From Prochloron sp. SulCav_FS08_3_32_3330 (GTDB taxonomy: Bacteria > Cyanobacteriota > Cyanobacteriia > Cyanobacteriales > DYNF01), in contig DYNF01000019.1 of the NCBI GenBank assembly GCA_020721205.1, forward strand, positions 1 to 48,025: a stretch of 48,025 bases of DNA, given 5' to 3'. The position numbers and the translations under genes were made by a program. Under the pieces are notes generated by a model. The model searched no databases and was not told where the DNA came from. It saw only the letters and a list, made by a program, of their open reading frames with translations. This document shows positions 1 to 44,728 of this stretch, piece by piece. How positions within the stretch are numbered: the first letter of the stretch is position 1; every line of letters begins with the position of its first letter.

Positions 1-2783
1 GCTCATTATTAAGTTTAGAATTAGACTTAACAAATAGTAATCTTAATTTATCAGAATTAACCCCTTTAGACTTACCCGCATTATTAACAGGAAGTGAAGT
101 TAATACAGGTTTAGAAATTAATAATGATGGTAAAGTAATTATAACAGATTGGAACACAATTATACCAACAGAGCAAGGAGCATCTTTGATTTCAGGAATA
201 ATTGATACTTCAGGAAATAATGGCGGTAATATTTTAATTTTAGGGAATAAAGTAGGTCTATTTGATGCTAATATTAATGCTAATGGGAATAATAATGGAG
301 GTACAATTTTAATCGGTGGAGATTATCAAGGTCAAGGTTTAATTCCTAATTCTCAAATTACTTTTGTTGATCCTAATACTACAATTAATGCTGATAGTTT
401 AAACGAAGGAAATGGAGGAAAAGTAATTATTTGGGCGGATCAAACTACAAGATTTTTTGGTGAAATTAATGCCAGAGGTGGTAATATTTCAGGGGATGGA
501 GGTTTTGTGGAAGTTAGTGGTAAAAATAACCTTAATTTTCAAGGAAAAGTTAATACTTTTGCCCCCAATGGTAATATAGGTACATTACTTTTAGATCCTG
601 ATAATCTTACGATTGTTGATGGGAATAGTCCTTATTCAGGTACTACTAATATATTTGATGGAATATTATTAGCAACAGATGATCCCGGAGATCAAACAAT
701 GGGAGTAAATTATCTACTTGATTATGTACTACATTATACTGATGTCACATTAGAAGCAAGTAATAATATTACTTGGGATGCACCTCTTATCTACACTGCT
801 GGAGCGACAGTAGGTTTAAAGAATGATCGTATTTTAACTTTAAAAGCAGGTAATTTAATTACGATTAATAATAGTATCTCATCATCTTTTGACACTGGCT
901 TAAATCAGTCTTTAAAGTTAACTTTAAATGCTACAGGTAATGAAATTGTAATTAATAGTAATATTGATACTTTTGGTGGTTCTATTAATATGACAGCTAC
1001 GGGTGGTAATATTACGGTTGGTAATAATGTTACTTTAAAAACAGGAGAAGAATTTGGTAGTGTCGGAAATATTAGTTTGATCGCCTCAAATGGTTTAATT
1101 AATATTGGTAGTGGTGTGATCTTTGATACTACTGTACCTTCAGGCACAACAGGAGGAGTAACTACAATTACTAATCCTGAAAATGTTACTAATAATGGTA
1201 CATTAACTTTAGGATCAGGAAATATTACTCTCGAAGCTAAACCTCCCGAAACACTGCCCGAAACACCTGTTTATACAGAAATTATAGAGACTACAGAAAT
1301 TATAGAGACTACAGAAATTATAGATGACTATTATCAATATAATTTTAATAATTATGAATTTGATTATAACTATCAAATTGCTGATAGTACAGATCATACT
1401 AAAGAAAAATTTGATTATTGTGAAAATAGTCTTTTAAGCTTATTTAGTGGCGATAATTTAGCGCATATTCGTCAATTTGAAAAAAGAATTAATGAAGATA
1501 TCTATGGTTACTATTTAGGGAATAGTAATATTACTTGTAAAGGGAATGTTAGCCCTCAAGCAAGACTAAGACAAATTGAAGAATTAACAGGGGAAAAAGG
1601 AGCTTTAATTTATGCTCGTTTTGTGCCAGAAAATGAAGAAATAATTGAAGATGATAATTTAATTTGGTTATTAAATAAATCCAATCTTAAATCTGAATTA
1701 TCCCCCAATCCTGAAAAGAAAGCTGTTGATCAATTAGAAATTACTGTTATTACTGGTAATGGTGATATTATTAAGAAAAAAATCCCCGAAGCTACAAGAG
1801 AAAATGTTAAAACTTTAGTCAATAAATTTATTGCTTCAGTAACAGATACTCGACGCAAAAAAGCTTATGAAACTCCATCAAAACAACTCTATAATGTTTT
1901 AATTACACCGATCGAATCAGAATTGAATAGTCAAGATATTGATAATCTTACTTTTGTGATGGATGAAGAATTGAGATCTCTTTCCGTTGCCGCCTTATAT
2001 GATGAAAAAACTGAACAATTTTTAGTGGAAAAATATAGTTTGGCAATGATGCCTAGTTTTTCTCTAACTAATAGTGAGTATTCTGACATTAAAAATACAC
2101 CAATTCTCACAATGGGTTCAGAAAAATTTGAAAACAAAAATCAAGAACAAAGTCCTTTACCTGCTGTTCCCACTGAATTATCTCTGATTACTAATCAAAT
2201 GTGGCAAGGAGAAGGGGAGTTATTTTTAAATGAAAACTTTACGATTAGTAATTTACAAGAAGTTCGAGCCAGTGAAACTCCTTTCGGTATCTTACATTTA
2301 GCTACTCATGGAGAATTTCACACGGGCAGTGTGGATAACTCTTATATTCAATTTTGGGATAATAAATTATCCCTTGATCAACTCGAAACCCTCAGATTAA
2401 ACGCTCCGCCTGTAGATCTCTTGGTGTTATCCGCCTGTAAAACGGCTGTGGGGGATAAAGACGCAGAATTAGGTTTTGCGGGTCTTGCGATCGCCGCCGG
2501 AGTCAAAACGTCTCTCGGTAGTTTATGGTATGTGTCAGATCAAGGCACATTAGCCCTAATGACCAGTTTTTATAATGCCCTACGTTATGCACCGATTAAA
2601 GCTGAAGCCTTGCGCTCCGCTCAGATAGACATGATTAAGGGAAATGTACACTATGAAAACGGAGAATTAATTGTCAATTCAGAGGCTATTCCTTTACCCG
2701 AAAATTTAGCAAGACAGGGAACACCTGATCTATCTCATCCTTATTATTGGAGTGCGTTTACACTGGTAGGCAGTCCTTGGTAA
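1..2783 (+). CDS. Secreted TpsA-type exoprotein with C-terminal CHAT protease domain (5' end outside window)
   Basis: The frame is open from base 3, so the gene begins before the window; a TTG at 186 is not a believable start. The first ~370 visible codons are low-complexity, Asn/Gly/Ile/Thr-rich repeats (GGNILI-, GNITV-like) typical of the beta-helix of filamentous-haemagglutinin (TpsA) proteins. A Glu/Thr/Ile-rich linker with a repeated ETTEII unit (about 1280-1330) leads into a C-terminal CHAT domain, a caspase-like peptidase fold. The expected dyad is visible: His in HLATHGEF (codon at 2307) and Cys in LVLSACKTA (codon at 2436). The next gene encodes a TpsB transporter, so export by two-partner secretion to the cell surface is inferred. 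The secretion signal and TPS domain would lie upstream and cannot be seen. The substrate is unknown. Confidence 0.85.
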   Translation, partial: SLLSLELDLTNSNLNLSELTPLDLPALLTGSEVNTGLEINNDGKVIITDWNTIIPTEQGASLISGIIDTSGNNGGNILILGNKVGLFDANINANGNNNGGTILIGGDYQGQGLIPNSQITFVDPNTTINADSLNEGNGGKVIIWADQTTRFFGEINARGGNISGDGGFVEVSGKNNLNFQGKVNTFAPNGNIGTLLLDPDNLTIVDGNSPYSGTTNIFDGILLATDDPGDQTMGVNYLLDYVLHYTDVTLEASNNITWDAPLIYTAGATVGLKNDRILTLKAGNLITINNSISSSFDTGLNQSLKLTLNATGNEIVINSNIDTFGGSINMTATGGNITVGNNVTLKTGEEFGSVGNISLIASNGLINIGSGVIFDTTVPSGTTGGVTTITNPENVTNNGTLTLGSGNITLEAKPPETLPETPVYTEIIETTEIIETTEIIDDYYQYNFNNYEFDYNYQIADSTDHTKEKFDYCENSLLSLFSGDNLAHIRQFEKRINEDIYGYYLGNSNITCKGNVSPQARLRQIEELTGEKGALIYARFVPENEEIIEDDNLIWLLNKSNLKSELSPNPEKKAVDQLEITVITGNGDIIKKKIPEATRENVKTLVNKFIASVTDTRRKKAYETPSKQLYNVLITPIESELNSQDIDNLTFVMDEELRSLSVAALYDEKTEQFLVEKYSLAMMPSFSLTNSEYSDIKNTPILTMGSEKFENKNQEQSPLPAVPTELSLITNQMWQGEGELFLNENFTISNLQEVRASETPFGILHLATHGEFHTGSVDNSYIQFWDNKLSLDQLETLRLNAPPVDLLVLSACKTAVGDKDAELGFAGLAIAAGVKTSLGSLWYVSDQGTLALMTSFYNALRYAPIKAEALRSAQIDMIKGNVHYENGELIVNSEAIPLPENLARQGTPDLSHPYYWSAFTLVGSPW

Positions 2784-2816
2784 ATCAATATTAGTTGACA
2801 GTTGATAGATCGTGGT

Positions 2817-2833
2817 ACAGGCATCCTGCCTGT
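2817..2833. repeat. Short palindrome after tpsA-like gene
   Basis: ACAGGCATCCTGCCTGT is a short inverted repeat 34 bases past the stop codon. A closely similar palindrome occurs in the opposite orientation at 33861-33879. There is no T-run, so it is a dispersed palindrome rather than a clear terminator. Confidence 0.5.
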
Positions 2834-2856
2834 TACTAACAAACTTATTATTGATT

Positions 2857-2987
2857 AAGTAGGTGATCATAAATAAAGTAACAAAAAGAAGATGGTTCGT
2901 AGTTGGGCTTCAGCCCAATCTAGTTAGGGCTGAAGCCCAACTACGAACTTTTTTATCTACTGAATATATATTTATTACCACCTACTT
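2857..2987. mobile_element. MITE-like element, AAGTAGGTG family, copy 1
   Basis: This 131-bp element is bounded by imperfect terminal inverted repeats (AAGTAGGTGATCATAAATA on the left, the complement of roughly the same sequence on the right). Its core is a strong hairpin with arms CGTAGTTGGGCTTCAGCCC and complement, followed by ACTTTTTTAT. A second copy with the same ends and arms but a different loop is at 44499-44623. It has no coding capacity, so it is probably non-autonomous. It sits between the exoprotein gene and its transporter, and its stem plus T-run could reduce transcription between them. Confidence 0.75.
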
Positions 2988-3098
2988 ACTTGAGTTGTAC
3001 AATCTATCTGTATACCATACAGTATAGGAAATTTTTAACACAAAACCGTCAAGAACGGGCTTTTAAATCAAATTTACGAATAACAAGTTAAATAATTT

Positions 3099-4913
3099 AT
3101 GAACCGCTTTACATTATTTCAATTCTGTCCTCAATTTCAACTAAAATATTTAGCAATGATCCTCGGTTTGCTCCTTTTAAATCTTACCGTTATAGGGATT
3201 AAACCCACTTTAGCTAAAAGCTTAACCCCTAATCACTCCAGCACAAAACCTGAGTTAAAAAAAGAACCTAAAACGATTATTGCACAGGATAATATTTCCC
3301 CTGAAAGCAATAGAGATCGCTTTGTTCAACCTGCTCCCCTTCCTGATCCCTTACCCGAAGAAACGGAAACACCTGTTACTCCCACTCCCCCCACTACAAC
3401 TACCCCCCCGATCGCCGGGGGAAATATTAATATTAAAACTATCACAGTGGAAGGAAGTAGTATTTTTACCGAAGAAGATTTTAGGGAATTTATCCAACCC
3501 CTAGAAGGTCAAAAAGTCACCGTAGACCAGTTACAAGGGGTGGCAGATCAAATTACTCAACTTTACCTAGAACAAGGCTATATTACCAGTCGTGCCGTGA
3601 TTGATCAAAATTCTCTCAGTACAGGTAATATTAATATTGATATAATCGAAGGCAGTTTAGAAGCGATCGAAGTGGAAGGTACAGAACGCCTCAATCCTGA
3701 TTATATTCGAGATCGGATCGCCCTTGGTGCAAGTGTTCCCCTGAATACAGCAGATTTAGAAGATCAACTCCGTTTATTACGCACCGATCCCCTGTTAGAG
3801 AATATCGAAGCCAGTTTAAAATCAGGAACAGGTTTAGGTCAAAGTATTTTATTCGTTACCGTTACAGAAGCCCGTTCTTTTTCTGGCGATTTTAGCATAG
3901 ATAACTATTCCCCTCCCAGTGTAGGTTCTGAGCGTTTCGGCATGAATCTACGTTATCAAAATGTCTCCGGTTTAGGAGATAATCTCGGTTTACTTTATCA
4001 ACATACTTTACAAGGGGGATCCGATAACCTCGATCTCAATTATCGTATCCCCGTAAATGCCATGAATGGTACTGTACAACTAAGAAGCGTGTTAAACTGG
4101 AACAGTGTTACTCAACCAAATTTAGCCTTTTTAGATATTTCGGGAGAATCGGATCTTTATGAAATAAGTTACCGCCAACCCCTAATCCGTACACCCAAAG
4201 AAGAATTTGCCCTATCTTTAGGTTTCACCCGTCAAGATGGACAAACCTTCACCTTTGCAGGTCCCACCGCTTTTGGTACAGGACCTGATCCCTTTGATGG
4301 TACAACCCGCACCAGTGTGTTAAAATTTGGACAAGAATATATCTCAAGAGATGGTGCGGGTGCTTGGGCGTTACGCTCATCCTTAAATTTTGGTACAGGC
4401 TTATTTGGCGTAACGGATGTCAACCCGAATGTTAACGGTTATTTTTTCAGTTGGTTAGGACAAATGCAACGGGTTCAAGTTCTTAATCCTGATAATTTCC
4501 TCATTATTCAAGCGGATTTACAATTATCTCCCGACGGGTTATTACCCTCTCAACAGTTTGTAATCGGTGGAGGTCAATCTATTCGAGGTTATCGTCAAAA
4601 TGTGCGCGCCGGGGATAATGGTTTTCGAGTTTCGATCGAAGATCGTATCACTTTAGAAAGAAATGAAGCGGGAGAATCAATTTTTCAAATTGCACCTTTT
4701 TTTGATTTTGGTAATGTGTGGAATGTCAGTGATAACCCAAATATTTTACAAAATGAAACTTTTATTATGGGTTTAGGAATGGGAATTTTATGGCAACCTT
4801 TACCAAAATTAAATATTCGTTTAGATTATGGTTTTCCTATTATGAATCTTGAAGATCGGGCGACTAATGCTCAAGATGAAGGGTTTTATTTTAGTATTAA
4901 TTATAATCTTTAA
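3099..4913 (+). CDS. TpsB/FhaC/ShlB-family outer-membrane transporter of two-partner secretion
   Basis: A 604-residue protein of usual TpsB size. It has an N-terminal signal peptide (hydrophobic stretch about residues 18-38, then TLAKS), a Pro/Thr-rich linker (about 80-105), a POTRA region (about 107-195, including TVEGSSIFTEEDF and a segment ending GYITSRAV), and a C-terminal 16-strand-type barrel region. The motif GGGQSIRGYRQN matches the conserved (V/I)RGY loop motif of the Omp85/TpsB superfamily, and the chain ends in an aromatic/hydrophobic strand (FYFSINYNL). In this family the protein moves one TpsA partner across the outer membrane; the upstream CHAT exoprotein is the obvious cargo. 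The 315-bp gap between them contains a mobile element, so co-transcription is uncertain. Confidence 0.93.
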   Translation: MNRFTLFQFCPQFQLKYLAMILGLLLLNLTVIGIKPTLAKSLTPNHSSTKPELKKEPKTIIAQDNISPESNRDRFVQPAPLPDPLPEETETPVTPTPPTTTTPPIAGGNINIKTITVEGSSIFTEEDFREFIQPLEGQKVTVDQLQGVADQITQLYLEQGYITSRAVIDQNSLSTGNINIDIIEGSLEAIEVEGTERLNPDYIRDRIALGASVPLNTADLEDQLRLLRTDPLLENIEASLKSGTGLGQSILFVTVTEARSFSGDFSIDNYSPPSVGSERFGMNLRYQNVSGLGDNLGLLYQHTLQGGSDNLDLNYRIPVNAMNGTVQLRSVLNWNSVTQPNLAFLDISGESDLYEISYRQPLIRTPKEEFALSLGFTRQDGQTFTFAGPTAFGTGPDPFDGTTRTSVLKFGQEYISRDGAGAWALRSSLNFGTGLFGVTDVNPNVNGYFFSWLGQMQRVQVLNPDNFLIIQADLQLSPDGLLPSQQFVIGGGQSIRGYRQNVRAGDNGFRVSIEDRITLERNEAGESIFQIAPFFDFGNVWNVSDNPNILQNETFIMGLGMGILWQPLPKLNIRLDYGFPIMNLEDRATNAQDEGFYFSINYNL

Positions 4914-18254: not shown

Positions 18255-19646
18255 ATGAATAATAAACAATTAGAAAAAATGACCAAAGTTGAGGTTTTTT
18301 CTCCAGAAATACAACCTCAAATCATCGCTCAATCTGGTAATACAAGGTCTTCTAATGTGGTAGGAGGTGTGGGAGTTAGTGTTGCTATTCTCATCTTTTT
18401 ATCTGTGTTAGGAATTTGGTTTCTTAATACTTTTATGTGCATTTGTAAACCTAATGAAGTTTTAGTTCTTTCTGGTAGAAAACATAAAACTAAAGGGGGA
18501 CGAGAATTAGGTTATCGGATTATTTTTGGAGGCAGGGCAATTCGGAATCCTTTATTAGAAACTGTTAAGAGTATGGATTTAACAGTAATGCCTGTACCTG
18601 TAGAGGTCAAAAATGCTTATTCTAAAGGGGGTATTCCCCTTTATATTCAGGCGATCGCTAATGTTAAAATATCAGGAAATCCCGGGGTTATTGGTAATGC
18701 AATTGAACGGTTTTTAGACAGAAATCGGTCAGAAATTGCTAGGGTAGCTAAAGAAACTTTAGAAGGAAATCTAAGAGGTGTGGTCGCTACTTTGACCCCG
18801 GAAGAATTGAATGAAGATCGTCTAAGATTTGCTGAACAAATTGCTGAAGATGTGTCAAAAGATTTGACGAAATTAGGGTTACAATTAGATACTTTAAAAA
18901 TTCAAAGTGTGTCTGATGAAGTGGATTATCTTAGCTCGATCGGTCGTCGTCAAATTGCGATTATTATTCGAGATGCGGAAATTGCTGAGTCTAATGCTTT
19001 AGGGGAGGCTGAGCGCATTGAAGCTGATTGTCAACGGGGGGCAGAAGTGGCTAAAACCCAAGCAAGAACCGTGATTCAAGAAAAAGAAAACGAATTACGC
19101 AAAATTAAAGCTCAATTAGAATTAACTGCGCGATCGGAGGAGGAGCGCACGGAAGCGGCGGCAAAAGAAGCAAGGGCAAAAGCGGAGCAAATTTTACAGA
19201 AAGTTCGGGCGGAATTAGAACGATTACGCTTAGAAGCCGATGAAGTTTTACCCGCAGAAGCTCAGAAACAGGCGAAAGAATTAGCGGCGAGGGGAAATGC
19301 GGCTTCTTTGGCAGAAAACTCTAAAGCCTCTGCTGTTGTCAACAATATGCTTTCTGAGGTCTGGAAGTCTATGGGTTCAGAAGCCTCTGATTTATTCTTG
19401 ATTCAACAAATTGAAACCCTCTTACAAGAAGCGGCAAAAGTGCCTAGTCGTCTGCATTTGGAGCATATTAATGTGATTGATAATGGAGATGGTAAAGCGA
19501 TCGCCAGTTTAATCAATGCTTATCCTGAAATTGTGCGTCAATTCTTAGCGCAAGTGGATCAAACTTTAGGAATTGATATGGCAGGAACATTAAATCAAAC
19601 TAAAATTCAAAATTCAAAATTCAAAATTCAAAATAACAATAATTAA
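18255..19646 (+). CDS. Flotillin-like SPFH-domain protein 1
   Basis: A 463-residue protein: short N-terminal region, one membrane segment (about 37-60), Cys-containing junction FMCICKPNEVLVLSG, SPFH domain (about 65-220), and a long Ala/Glu/Lys/Arg-rich coiled coil (about 230-340) with EA-rich repeats, then a C-terminal flotillin tail. Flotillins assemble on the inner membrane and organise membrane domains. The last residues (TKIQNSKFKIQNNNN) are encoded by an AAAATTC heptamer repeat. It is 24 bases ahead of a second flotillin and surely co-transcribed. No nfeD-type partner is next to it. Confidence 0.9.
   Translation: MNNKQLEKMTKVEVFSPEIQPQIIAQSGNTRSSNVVGGVGVSVAILIFLSVLGIWFLNTFMCICKPNEVLVLSGRKHKTKGGRELGYRIIFGGRAIRNPLLETVKSMDLTVMPVPVEVKNAYSKGGIPLYIQAIANVKISGNPGVIGNAIERFLDRNRSEIARVAKETLEGNLRGVVATLTPEELNEDRLRFAEQIAEDVSKDLTKLGLQLDTLKIQSVSDEVDYLSSIGRRQIAIIIRDAEIAESNALGEAERIEADCQRGAEVAKTQARTVIQEKENELRKIKAQLELTARSEEERTEAAAKEARAKAEQILQKVRAELERLRLEADEVLPAEAQKQAKELAARGNAASLAENSKASAVVNNMLSEVWKSMGSEASDLFLIQQIETLLQEAAKVPSRLHLEHINVIDNGDGKAIASLINAYPEIVRQFLAQVDQTLGIDMAGTLNQTKIQNSKFKIQNNNN
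19602..19634 (+). repeat. In-frame AAAATTC tandem heptamer
   Basis: Four to five AAAATTC units lie at the very 3' end of the first flotillin gene and encode KIQNSKFKIQN. The same heptamer class is intergenic at 11878-11935 (opposite strand sense). Confidence 0.8.
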
Positions 19647-19670
19647 AAATTAATTAAAAGGGAAAAAATC

Positions 19671-21320
19671 ATGGATGTTATTATCACAGTTTTATTCATG
19701 TTAAGTTTAGGAACAAGTGCCGGATTTATGGTACTTCGTAATCTTTATTATATCTGTCAACCTAGTGAAATTTTAATTTTTGCTGGGAGTAGTAGTAAAA
19801 CAGATGATAAGCGACGAATTGGCTATCGTTTAATAAAAGGAGGTAGTGCTATTCGTACTCCTTTATTAGAAAAAGCTTTTCGTATGGATCTAACTAATAT
19901 GATCATCGAATTAAAGGTAACAAATGCTTATTCAAAAGGCGGTATTCCTTTAAAAGTAGATGGTGTAGCTAATATTAAAATAGCAGGAGAAGAACCGACA
20001 ATTCACAATGCAATTGAAAGATTATTAGGCAAAACTCGTAAAGAAATTGAAGGTTTTGCTAAGGAAACATTGGAGGGAAATTTAAGAGGAGTTTTAGCAA
20101 GTTTAACCCCTGAACAAGTTAATGAAGATAAAATTGCTTTCGCTAAAAGTTTATTAGAAGAAGCAGAAGATGACCTCGAAAAATTAGGTTTAGTTTTAGA
20201 TAATTTGCAAATTCAAAATATTTCTGATGATGTTTCTTATTTAGATTCAATTGGGCGAAAACAACAGGCAAATTTAATGCGAGATGCGAGAATTGCTGAA
20301 GCTCAAGCTCATGCTGAATCTTTAATAAAATCAGCAGAAAATGAAAGAATTACGGCTTTAAGACGGATTGATCGAGATATTGATATTGCTAAAGCCCAAG
20401 CAGAATTGAGGGTTAAAAGTGCCTTAACAAAAAGAGAAGCTGTAGTGGCAGAAGTAGAGGCAGAAATTTCTTCTGAAGTGGTAAAAAGAAAGGCTGAAGT
20501 ATCAGTTCAAACTGAAAGAATTAAACAGGTTGAACAACAATTACAGGCTGATGTAATTGCCCCTGCTGAAGCAAATTGTAAAAAGGCAATTGCCCAAGCG
20601 AAGGGAAATGCTGCCTCTATTATTGAAGATGGAAAAGCTAAAGTTGAGGGGATTAAAAGTTTAGCTCAATCTTGGCAAAATGCGGGGGATTCAGCAAGGG
20701 AAATTTTCCTTTTTCAAAAATTGGATATTCTCTTAAAAACTTTAGTTAAATCTATCCCGGAAGTTAATGTTCAAAATGTAACTGTTATTGATGCTAAAGA
20801 TGGCAATACTGTTACTAAAATGGCTTCTTTTATGGAACAATTACGCCAAGCAACGGGGATGGATCTCGTTAAAGTAGTTAATAATATTTCATCTCAATCC
20901 TCAGATAATCCTGAGTTACTTGTAGGAAAAACAATTGAGGAATCAAACTCAGAAACTTCGCAAAAAAAAACACCAATAAATAATCCGCCGTCTCTTTCTG
21001 ATCAATCTTTTAATTTTACCCCTTCTTCTATTCCTGAAAAAAATACAGAAACCGATGAAAAACTCTCAACTCCTCCTATTGATCATGCTCTTAAGTCGGA
21101 AATTAAGCAACAGCTTGATAAATTAGCTCTCAATAGTGCGAATAATGACCTTGCACACCGATATATTCAACAAATGATCAAAAATTCTCCCCAACTAAAA
21201 CAACGCCTTCAACGGGCGTTACAAGCGGGGGGTAAAGAAGCTTTAGAGGTTGTTTTAGACCATCCTTTGATTCATATTTCTACCACGATGGTGGAAGCTT
21301 GGTTAAAGAATGATCATTAA
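19671..21320 (+). CDS. Flotillin-like SPFH-domain protein 2 with extra C-terminal domain
   Basis: A 549-residue paralogue of the preceding protein: membrane segment at the N-terminus (about 4-28), YICQPSEILIFAGSS, SPFH domain (about 32-200) and coiled coil (about 200-310). Unlike its neighbour it continues through a Ser/Pro/Thr-rich linker (about 415-465) into an extra ~85-residue helical domain with LKQRLQRALQAGGKEALEVV and LDHPLIHISTTMVEAWLK. That tail resembles, from memory, small helical modules at the ends of cyanobacterial signalling proteins (effector-associated domains); this is unverified. GGGAAAAAAT lies a few bases before the ATG. The pair may form hetero-oligomers. Confidence 0.88.
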   Translation: MDVIITVLFMLSLGTSAGFMVLRNLYYICQPSEILIFAGSSSKTDDKRRIGYRLIKGGSAIRTPLLEKAFRMDLTNMIIELKVTNAYSKGGIPLKVDGVANIKIAGEEPTIHNAIERLLGKTRKEIEGFAKETLEGNLRGVLASLTPEQVNEDKIAFAKSLLEEAEDDLEKLGLVLDNLQIQNISDDVSYLDSIGRKQQANLMRDARIAEAQAHAESLIKSAENERITALRRIDRDIDIAKAQAELRVKSALTKREAVVAEVEAEISSEVVKRKAEVSVQTERIKQVEQQLQADVIAPAEANCKKAIAQAKGNAASIIEDGKAKVEGIKSLAQSWQNAGDSAREIFLFQKLDILLKTLVKSIPEVNVQNVTVIDAKDGNTVTKMASFMEQLRQATGMDLVKVVNNISSQSSDNPELLVGKTIEESNSETSQKKTPINNPPSLSDQSFNFTPSSIPEKNTETDEKLSTPPIDHALKSEIKQQLDKLALNSANNDLAHRYIQQMIKNSPQLKQRLQRALQAGGKEALEVVLDHPLIHISTTMVEAWLKNDH

Positions 21321-41653: not shown

Positions 41654-42256
41654 TTATTCCTTATTAAAATCAATTTTTTTATATAATTCTTGTAAACTAA
41701 TCTCAAAATTAATTGATTCTAATTTTAACACAGATTCTTCTCCATAATAATCTGTTAATACCCATTTTCCTGTTTCATTTTTCGCAAATTGTTTCACATA
41801 ATATTGATATTGATCAATTAAGATATATTCTTTAAATGTTTCTAAACTACGATAAGAGTCAAATTTATCATTTTGATCATAATCTTTCGTTGATTTTGAT
41901 AACACTTCAATGATTAAACTAGGATTAACAATTGTGGTTTTACTTTTACCTTGATAAATCGGTTTTCCTGTTACGATCATCACATCTGGATAAGTATATA
42001 TTTTTGTTTTTTCAATAGAAACACGCACATCTCCTATATATACTTGATAGTCTTGATCTTCTAAAGCTAAAAGCAGTAAAGTATAAATTTTACCCGCTAA
42101 TTTATTATGATTAGTAGTAGCCCCTGTCATAGTTACAATTTCTCCATTTAGATATTCATGTTTTGCTTGGGAATTATCCTCAAATTCCAGATATTCTTGA
42201 ATAGAATAATGTTTTTTTTCTGTTTTCTCTGTTTTAACTGGAGTAGCAATAGTCAT
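41654..42256 (-). CDS. Uma2-family protein, copy 1
   Basis: 200 residues from the ATG at 42256 (MTIATPVKTEKTEKKHYSIQ). GGAG lies about 10 bases upstream, and the same start in copy 2 supports it over the in-frame ATG five codons earlier. The Uma2/DUF820 fold has the putative PD-(D/E)XK residues in YTYPDVMIVTGKP and PSLIIEVLSKST, followed by DYDQNDKFDSYRSLETFKEY with IDQYQYYVKQF. Uma2 proteins are numerous in cyanobacteria and considered nuclease-like; their biological role is unclear. Copy 1 differs from copy 2 by Gln/Glu and Ala/Glu changes near residues 20-32 and two fewer TEK units. Confidence 0.88.
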   Translation of the reverse strand: MTIATPVKTEKTEKKHYSIQEYLEFEDNSQAKHEYLNGEIVTMTGATTNHNKLAGKIYTLLLLALEDQDYQVYIGDVRVSIEKTKIYTYPDVMIVTGKPIYQGKSKTTIVNPSLIIEVLSKSTKDYDQNDKFDSYRSLETFKEYILIDQYQYYVKQFAKNETGKWVLTDYYGEESVLKLESINFEISLQELYKKIDFNKE

Positions 42257-42337
42257 GTTTTTTTTCTCCAAAATTAAATATTAGTAATATATGTTTAATA
42301 TTGTGCTGTAACAAGCTAGAAGCTTGTTTTACGTTAA

Positions 42338-42958
42338 TTATTCCTTATTAAAATCAATTTTTTTATATAATTCTTGTAAACTAATTTCAAAATTAATTGA
42401 TTCTAATTTTAACACAGATTCTTCTCCATAATAATCTGTTAATACCCATTTTCCTGTTTCATTTTTCGCAAATTGTTTCACATAATATTGATATTGATCA
42501 ATTAAGATATATTCTTTAAATGTTTCTAAACTACGATAAGAGTCAAATTTATCATTTTGATCATAATCTTTCGTTGATTTTGATAACACTTCAATGATTA
42601 AACTAGGATTAACAATTGTGGTTTTACTTTTACCTTGATAAATCGGTTTTCCTGTTACGATCATCACATCTGGATAAGTATATATTTTTGTTTTTTCAAT
42701 AGAAACACGCACATCTCCTATATATACTTGATAGTCTTGATCTTCTAAAGCTAAAAGCAGTAAAGTATAAATTTTACCCGCTAATTTATTATGATTAGTA
42801 GTAGCCCCTGTCATAGTTACAATTTCTCCATTTAGATATTCATGTTTTTCTTGGGAATTATCCTCAAATTCGAGATATTCTTCAATAGAATAATGTTTTT
42901 TTTCAGTTTTTTCAGTTTTTTCAGTTTTTTCAGTTTTAACTGGAGTAGCAATAGTCAT
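42338..42958 (-). CDS. Uma2-family protein, copy 2
   Basis: 206 residues, starting MTIATPVKTEKTEKTEKTEK with four TEK units against two in copy 1. GGAG lies 9-12 bases upstream. The rest of the protein is identical to copy 1 except for a few residues near the start, and it has the same putative catalytic residues (PDVMIV, IIEVLS). The identity suggests a recent tandem duplication or gene conversion. The pair is minus strand with 81 bases between the genes. Confidence 0.88.
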   Translation of the reverse strand: MTIATPVKTEKTEKTEKTEKKHYSIEEYLEFEDNSQEKHEYLNGEIVTMTGATTNHNKLAGKIYTLLLLALEDQDYQVYIGDVRVSIEKTKIYTYPDVMIVTGKPIYQGKSKTTIVNPSLIIEVLSKSTKDYDQNDKFDSYRSLETFKEYILIDQYQYYVKQFAKNETGKWVLTDYYGEESVLKLESINFEISLQELYKKIDFNKE

Positions 42959-44433: not shown

Positions 44434-44498
44434 TGAACAAATAATTACAATGGGAAATTTGAAGATTGATCCAGATAAATTATTAATTATAGCATTTT

Positions 44499-44623
44499 AA
44501 GTAGGTGGTCATAAATAAAGTAACAAAAAGAAGATGTTTCGTAGTTGGGCTTCAGCCCTCTTACAGGGCTGAAGCCCAACTACGAACTTTTTTATACATG
44601 ACAATATTTATGACCACATACTT
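44499..44623. mobile_element. MITE-like element, AAGTAGGTG family, copy 2
   Basis: Ends AAGTAGGTGGTCATAAATA and ATATTTATGACCACATACTT. The core hairpin has the same arms as copy 1 at 2857 (CGTAGTTGGGCTTCAGCCC and complement) but a shorter loop (TCTTACA), then ACTTTTTTATA. Outside both copies the right flank is ACTT. It lies in the 399-base gap upstream of psaK. Confidence 0.8.
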
Positions 44624-44728
44624 ACTTAACTTTAATCAGATCGAAAAAAAGACATAACAGCTAAAAAGCTTATTACATAAGCTTTTTGACCTTTAACTAA
44701 GAGAACAAAGCAAAGAGAAATATTAAGT

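Follow-up and report, generated by a model that had tools for sequence, protein, structure and literature searches.

The window, as the whole 48,025-nucleotide stretch of DNA analysed is called here, covers positions 1-48025 of contig C22 in a cyanobacterial draft genome of 4.73 Mb and 209 contigs. It opens with the 3' part of a gene for a predicted exoprotein of the two-partner secretion (TpsA) type that ends in a CHAT domain, followed on the same strand by a gene for a TpsB transporter. The features of this region are:

3-2783, plus strand: 3' part of the TpsA-CHAT gene, 926 amino acids, an open frame with its 5' end cut
3-1160, plus strand: beta-rich exoprotein segment, residues 1-386, assigned by homology to the part of exoproteins that follows the TPS domain; low-confidence model
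1161-1400, plus strand: low-complexity linker (PET/ETTEII), residues 387-466, recognised from the sequence and a pLDDT of about 30
1401-2783, plus strand: predicted separase/Csx29-type protease module (pseudo-caspase and active caspase halves), residues 467-926
1419-1421, plus strand: codon of Cys473, one of just two non-catalytic cysteines in the fragment
1536-1538, plus strand: codon of Cys512, the second non-catalytic cysteine
1875-2774, plus strand: Pfam CHAT domain, inside the protease module
2307-2309, plus strand: codon of the predicted catalytic His, H769, in HLATHGEF
2436-2438, plus strand: codon of the predicted catalytic Cys, C812, in LSACKT
2856-2988, no strand assigned: MITE-like repeat of 133 bp with 20-bp terminal inverted repeats and an inner hairpin with 27-bp arms
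3099-4913, plus strand: TpsB (FhaC/ShlB-type) outer-membrane transporter, 604 amino acids, with POTRA_2 and ShlB domains

CHAT (PF12770) is the sole Pfam domain of the 926-residue fragment. It occupies residues 625-924 (E=1.2e-66), and the match extends over positions 3-289 of the 289 in the profile with a score of 225.6 bits against a cut-off of 24. An earlier note on this DNA had reported a CHAT domain with its His (2307) and Cys (2436) intact, and this is borne out, the domain being complete and both codons lying exactly at these bases. A TPR match is absent from the Pfam search of the window protein. The same note described the region in front of the CHAT domain as beta-helix repeats, which holds in part. 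The segment is beta-rich by prediction, and the beta-helix assignment is based on homology, the segment being 43-59% identical to the part of full-length exoproteins that follows their TPS domain, whereas the AlphaFold model of the whole window protein gives the solenoid part low confidence, with a pLDDT of about 30-55.

Since base 1 of the window is also base 1 of contig C22, the start codon of the gene is missing, and the signal peptide and the TPS domain are lacking for the same reason. The upstream sequence, in which the earlier note proposed to look for both, is thus off the contig, but the alignment of the first 300 residues, at about the identity given above, places residue 1 or 2 of the fragment opposite about residues 229-253 in several homologues of full length (L047, L085, L097, L120, L151, L178, and L179), just behind their TPS domain. 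Judging from this alignment, about 230-250 N-terminal residues appear to be absent, as many as a signal peptide and a TPS domain together take up. The beginning of the fragment has no significant residual similarity to TPS, and the 11 TPS-domain matches in the assembly all belong to other genes, none of them being a free contig end that completes the window gene. The nearest paralogue in the genome, on contig C35, is 70-75% identical and has both a signal peptide and a TPS domain; no close orthologue above about 57% identity was found in 60 relatives. The window copy itself is presumably exported. The C35 paralogue (L045 3670-9713) carries a frameshift inside its TPS domain (183 + 1833 amino acids), making it either a pseudogene or the product of an assembly error.

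The 604-residue downstream gene has POTRA_2 at 3429-3653 (1.6e-21) and the ShlB barrel at 3837-4787 (3.8e-27) in Pfam and is, therefore, a TpsB. The earlier note had this gene directly following the exoprotein gene; it is indeed the next gene on the same strand, but a gap of 315 bp (fold z-score of -8.45) holding the MITE-like element lies between the two. The terminal inverted repeats of this element are found at 2856-2875 and 2969-2988 and its inner hairpin at 2895-2948, and more than 30 other copies occur in the genome; the window holds a copy at 44497-44627 as well. Given that TpsB adjoins the fused gene in just 8 of 62 loci where TPS and CHAT are fused, the neighbour at 3099-4913 may not be a dedicated transporter. 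The genome G000 and five related genomes contain 4-20 TPS exoproteins each versus about 2-5 TpsB, and since the exoproteins outnumber the transporters, one TpsB probably serves several of them.

A sequence-only search of the PDB with the protease gave nothing, and its relatives were found by a search on fold. The AlphaFold model of residues 447-926, built from 59 sequences, has a pLDDT of 87.5 and a pTM of 0.89, and it matches Csx29/TPR-CHAT (VIA Z of 27.6, 337 residues, 3.6 A), separase (24.6), the gingipains RgpB and Kgp (19.2 and 18.1), and DdvA (8rot and 8rw5, about 18). The matches to Csx29, separase, and gingipain mean that the prediction is of an entire separase-type module, comprising a pseudo-caspase half and an active one, and goes beyond a caspase p20-like patch. 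The modelling that the earlier note had called for thus yields a confident separase/Csx29-type fold. Both this check and the one on the upstream domains, made through the homologues, speak for the reading given in the note. The His and Cys are both present in 61 of 61 CHAT domains that were gathered without a dyad-based search. The two residues are 43 positions apart in the fused CHATs of this unbiased set and likewise in H769/C812, which is the spacing of the dyad H615/C658 of Csx29 (PMC10028731). The Cys is kept in 76 of 76 fused proteins of a larger, partly biased set. For the His, conservation in the set of 80 loci is biased given that HLATHGEF was a scan pattern, and the recount used the unbiased set. 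From the fold match, a caspase geometry is predicted for the H769/C812 dyad, and the window CHAT is expected to be catalytically active.

The combination of TPS and CHAT in a single polypeptide is not restricted to the window. The same genome has four intact single open reading frames (ORFs) with signal peptide, TPS, and CHAT, namely two tandem genes on C122 (1389 and 1365 amino acids), one on C70 (2077 amino acids), and one on C171 (1715 amino acids), in which Pfam shows just TPS and CHAT, plus TPR in C171. In 80 cyanobacterial loci that were fetched, 68 ORFs hold both domains. In these fused ORFs CHAT is always at the extreme C-terminus, the match stopping two residues short of the end, and a start resembling a signal peptide is found by a crude rule in 52 of the 69 complete ones. 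The window protein has matches in 55 of 60 related genomes, and in five complete genomes CHAT lies inside the same ORF for 16 of 54 TPS genes, with up to seven TPS-CHAT proteins per genome. The 68 ORFs and the 55 genomes indicate that the architecture is widespread in cyanobacteria and no singular oddity. The earlier note had set CHAT domains that are often intracellular effectors against this one, predicted to be displayed or released outside the cell. Export is supported by the homologues that carry TPS and CHAT in one ORF; as a use of CHAT it is not exceptional, given how common the architecture is. The wide recurrence of this coupling, fused or in neighbouring genes, suggests that in many cyanobacteria a caspase-type protease resides beyond the cytoplasm and acts on the cell's own surface proteins. 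CHAT and TPS are both long-established families, and any domain scan would reveal that they occur together. A literature search, with subscription journals outside its scope, found no paper coupling CHAT with two-partner secretion or filamentous haemagglutinin, and what appears to be new is a two-partner-secretion exoprotein with a separase-type protease as its tip.

Cysteines were counted in 74 distinct fused proteins, beginning where the TPS domain begins. In 38 of them no Cys other than the catalytic one occurs, and the counted part is as long as 3,368 residues. Additional cysteines are even in number in 69 of the 74 proteins overall and in 31 of the 36 that have any, versus 33% for a Poisson distribution of the same mean (non-zero counts), although the fused sequences are related and the counts are, therefore, not independent. 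These cysteines often form close pairs, such as C-x3-C. The pattern would fit an exported protein with disulfide pairs and one free nucleophile. The window fragment, with Cys473 and Cys512 in addition to the catalytic Cys812, conforms to this pattern, and a disulfide between Cys473 and Cys512 is possible.

TPS and CHAT also occur as separate neighbours. Using 2000 circular shifts in the five complete genomes to obtain expected counts, a separate CHAT gene is found within 10 kb of 17 of the 38 CHAT-less TPS genes versus 2.6 expected, with none of the 2000 shifts reaching this number, and DUF928 (12 versus 1.1) and CHASE2 (8 versus 1.2) are enriched within the same distance. The fused TPS genes have no excess of nearby separate CHATs (2/16 versus 0.94 expected). 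Most of the separate TPR-CHATs that adjoin TPS genes have an N-terminal signal-like stretch, and the separate TPR-CHATs cluster with CHASE2 (20/96 versus 3.3 expected) and with DUF928 (19/96 versus 3.2), while fused loci have no excess of either (1/16 each). The typical order is TPS exoprotein, TPR-CHAT, DUF928, and a CHASE2 kinase or cyclase. DUF928 is a family whose function is so far unassigned. The neighbourhood of TPS, exported TPR-CHAT, DUF928, and CHASE2 recurs in L049, L054, L056, and L163-L177. A different arrangement, an array of near-alike and very large CHAT genes of another clade (ORFs of 1221-1733 amino acids), is seen in L180-L181 (G009 1386000-1423000).

The CHAT-less exoproteins share a C-terminal domain, A4, which has the motifs GRGGxPxxP and VEAxGW and a C near its end (e.g., L049 4608-4937) and has no Pfam match. 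With genes and ORFs matched by ORF length, it is present in 31 of 38 CHAT-less TPS ORFs, whereas all 16 fused ones lack it. A4 and a C-terminal CHAT are mutually exclusive except in the C171 protein. In this protein (L048 3507-8654), residues 1-885 correspond to a complete exoprotein including an A4 domain at 804-885, and residues 880-1715 align with the whole mature length of separate TPR-CHATs, minus the signal peptide; the C150 protein is 44% identical over its residues 44-863. The internal A4 domain and the alignment over the full mature TPR-CHAT indicate that in C171 a whole exoprotein is fused to a whole TPR-CHAT, and this anatomy argues that it would be a second TPS-CHAT fusion, involving a CHAT clade different from that of the window gene. 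Two independent fusions could not be derived from the tree alone, given that the AU test does not reject a single clade (p 0.65), and for this reason the case for a second fusion rests on the anatomy of C171. In two other ORFs, the exoprotein is fused to TpsB instead (L168 1395-5825 in G009, 1476 amino acids, and L176 8027-12448 in G037, 1473 amino acids), with TPR-CHAT as the next gene, then DUF928 and CHASE2. Together with C171, these fusions indicate that TPS, TpsB, and CHAT behave as one working set. The gene arrangement thus indicates that TPS and CHAT are functionally linked. Linkage of this kind means that the two work together; it does not imply that one is cut by the other.

The reading preferred here, with a probability of about 0.6, is that the window encodes a two-partner-secreted separase/Csx29-type CHAT protease acting on TPS surface exoproteins. 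The exoprotein would consist of a signal peptide, a TPS domain, a beta-solenoid body, a linker, and the CHAT cysteine protease as the last part. The polypeptide would leave the cytoplasm by Sec, and a TpsB, probably the one encoded next door at 3099-4913, would recognise its TPS domain. Threading of the outer membrane would proceed N-terminus first, so that CHAT would either emerge last or be held in the periplasm. It would then fold outside the cytoplasm, where the His769/Cys812 dyad may cut TPS exoproteins, be it the protein itself, its copies, or its neighbours. At other loci, both in this genome and in related ones, the same pairing would operate in trans, with a CHAT-less TPS exoprotein beside a TPR-CHAT protease that has a signal peptide. 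For the window CHAT, its activity, what it cuts and on which side of the outer membrane it sits are presumptive, and the linkers of the fused proteins revealed no conserved motif for a cleavage site. It is put forward more tentatively, at rather less than even odds, that these proteins constitute a widespread extracytoplasmic caspase-type pathway in which CHATs, in trans or fused, cut TPS exoproteins and thereby control their release, display, or signalling.

The C-termini of FhaB and CdiA are kept in the periplasm, and for this reason a location of CHAT outside the cell is not secured. CHAT might stay periplasmic, like the FhaB prodomain or the CdiA toxin end, and act as an envelope protease or as a checkpoint tied to signalling through CHASE2 sensors. 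This would agree with CHAT being always the last segment exported, with the clustering of the separate TPR-CHATs with CHASE2 and DUF928, and with the fact that these have a signal peptide without a TPS domain and would, therefore, end in the periplasm or the membrane. Nonetheless, it is considered unlikely, given that such an excess is not observed for the fused loci and that Pfam detects no known retention domain in the four intact proteins of the same genome. More improbable still is that CHAT is a toxin-like payload for neighbouring cells, as in contact-dependent inhibition. A TPS exoprotein with a body of variable length (314-2,874 residues between TPS and CHAT in the fused proteins) and a C-terminal enzymatic domain would be compatible with this, and caspase-type effectors do kill in other bacterial conflict systems (PMC10907252). 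However, PT-VENN or another pretoxin domain is absent from the window protein and its four intact homologues in the genome, and CHAT is conserved as the tip, with 41-49% identity to the window in all 58 other rows of the alignment, and never swapped for other toxins in the set. Moreover, the genes downstream encode TpsB, then methyltransferase, glyoxalase, and Fe-S proteins, with no candidate for immunity among them, and the order is TpsA-TpsB versus cdiB-cdiA-cdiI. That CHAT has lost its protease activity and serves an adhesin only as a cap, structural or for binding, is hardly credible: TPS-CHAT proteins have no known activity and no paper on them was found, but the dyad is kept throughout the unbiased set and half of the fused proteins retain no Cys besides the catalytic one along the whole exported chain.

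The proposed two-partner-secreted protease can be compared with several known systems. It shares with FHA, HMW1, and ShlA (PF05860), which work with FhaC/ShlB (PF03865), the TPS domain (in the homologues), the beta-rich and Cys-poor body, and the adjoining TpsB. Known TpsA proteins are adhesins, haemolysins, or toxins of contact-dependent inhibition, and to our knowledge none with a caspase-fold tip has been characterised. Gingipains (clan CD) are likewise caspase-fold proteases working outside the cell, as proposed here, but they belong to another family and phylum, use another secretion route (type IX), and are not fused to a TPS exoprotein. Separase shares the pseudo-caspase and active domains but is eukaryotic and intracellular and cleaves cohesin, while the transmembrane anti-sigma factor DdvA has a CHAT-like module but serves membrane signalling, with no TPS exoprotein. 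Csx29/TPR-CHAT of type III-E CRISPR (Craspase; PDB 7y9x and 8eex; PMC10028731) has the same fold across the whole protease module, and a Glu two residues after the His is common to Csx29 (E617) and the window CHAT. Nevertheless, Csx29 is a cytoplasmic protein that carries TPRs at its N-terminus and has Cas7-11 as its switch, whereas the window CHAT has no TPR and is the tip of an exoprotein predicted to be secreted. A gene of the size of gRAMP (Cas7-11) is absent, there being no ORF above 880 amino acids between 7 and 48 kb of the window. HetF (Alr3546) of Anabaena sp. PCC 7120 is a cyanobacterial CHAT protein too, in which CHAT lies in the N-terminal 555 residues of a divisome protein with one transmembrane segment and no TPS export (PMC8406250); in the window protein, an exoprotein body comes first and CHAT forms the C-terminal end.

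In Nostoc 7120, the phage-resistant substrain RD5 is listed as having a mutation in a protein with a filamentous-haemagglutinin N-terminal domain and lower phage adsorption, and one of the two mutations of RD2 is in the CHAT protein all2170 (PMC10811720). These genetic data are thin but point to the surface. An assignment of the window gene to anti-phage defence was rejected, the only support being a weak match to BovA through the CHAT domain.

CHAT proteases have been studied as intracellular switches, as in Craspase, HetF, and separase-like proteins. In the present case this fold, its dyad unimpaired, appears to form part of the route by which giant surface proteins are exported. This points to a little-studied extracytoplasmic caspase-type proteolysis in bacteria, with possible roles in adhesion, phage adsorption, and filament or mat behaviour. 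DUF928 and the CHASE2 sensors, which are poorly understood families, gain a concrete partner.

Elsewhere in the window, two adjoining genes at 18255-21320 (463 and 549 amino acids) look flotillin/SPFH-like and are apparently a duplicated pair, and two tandem, near-identical genes at 41654-42958 (205-206 amino acids) look like Uma2-type nucleases.
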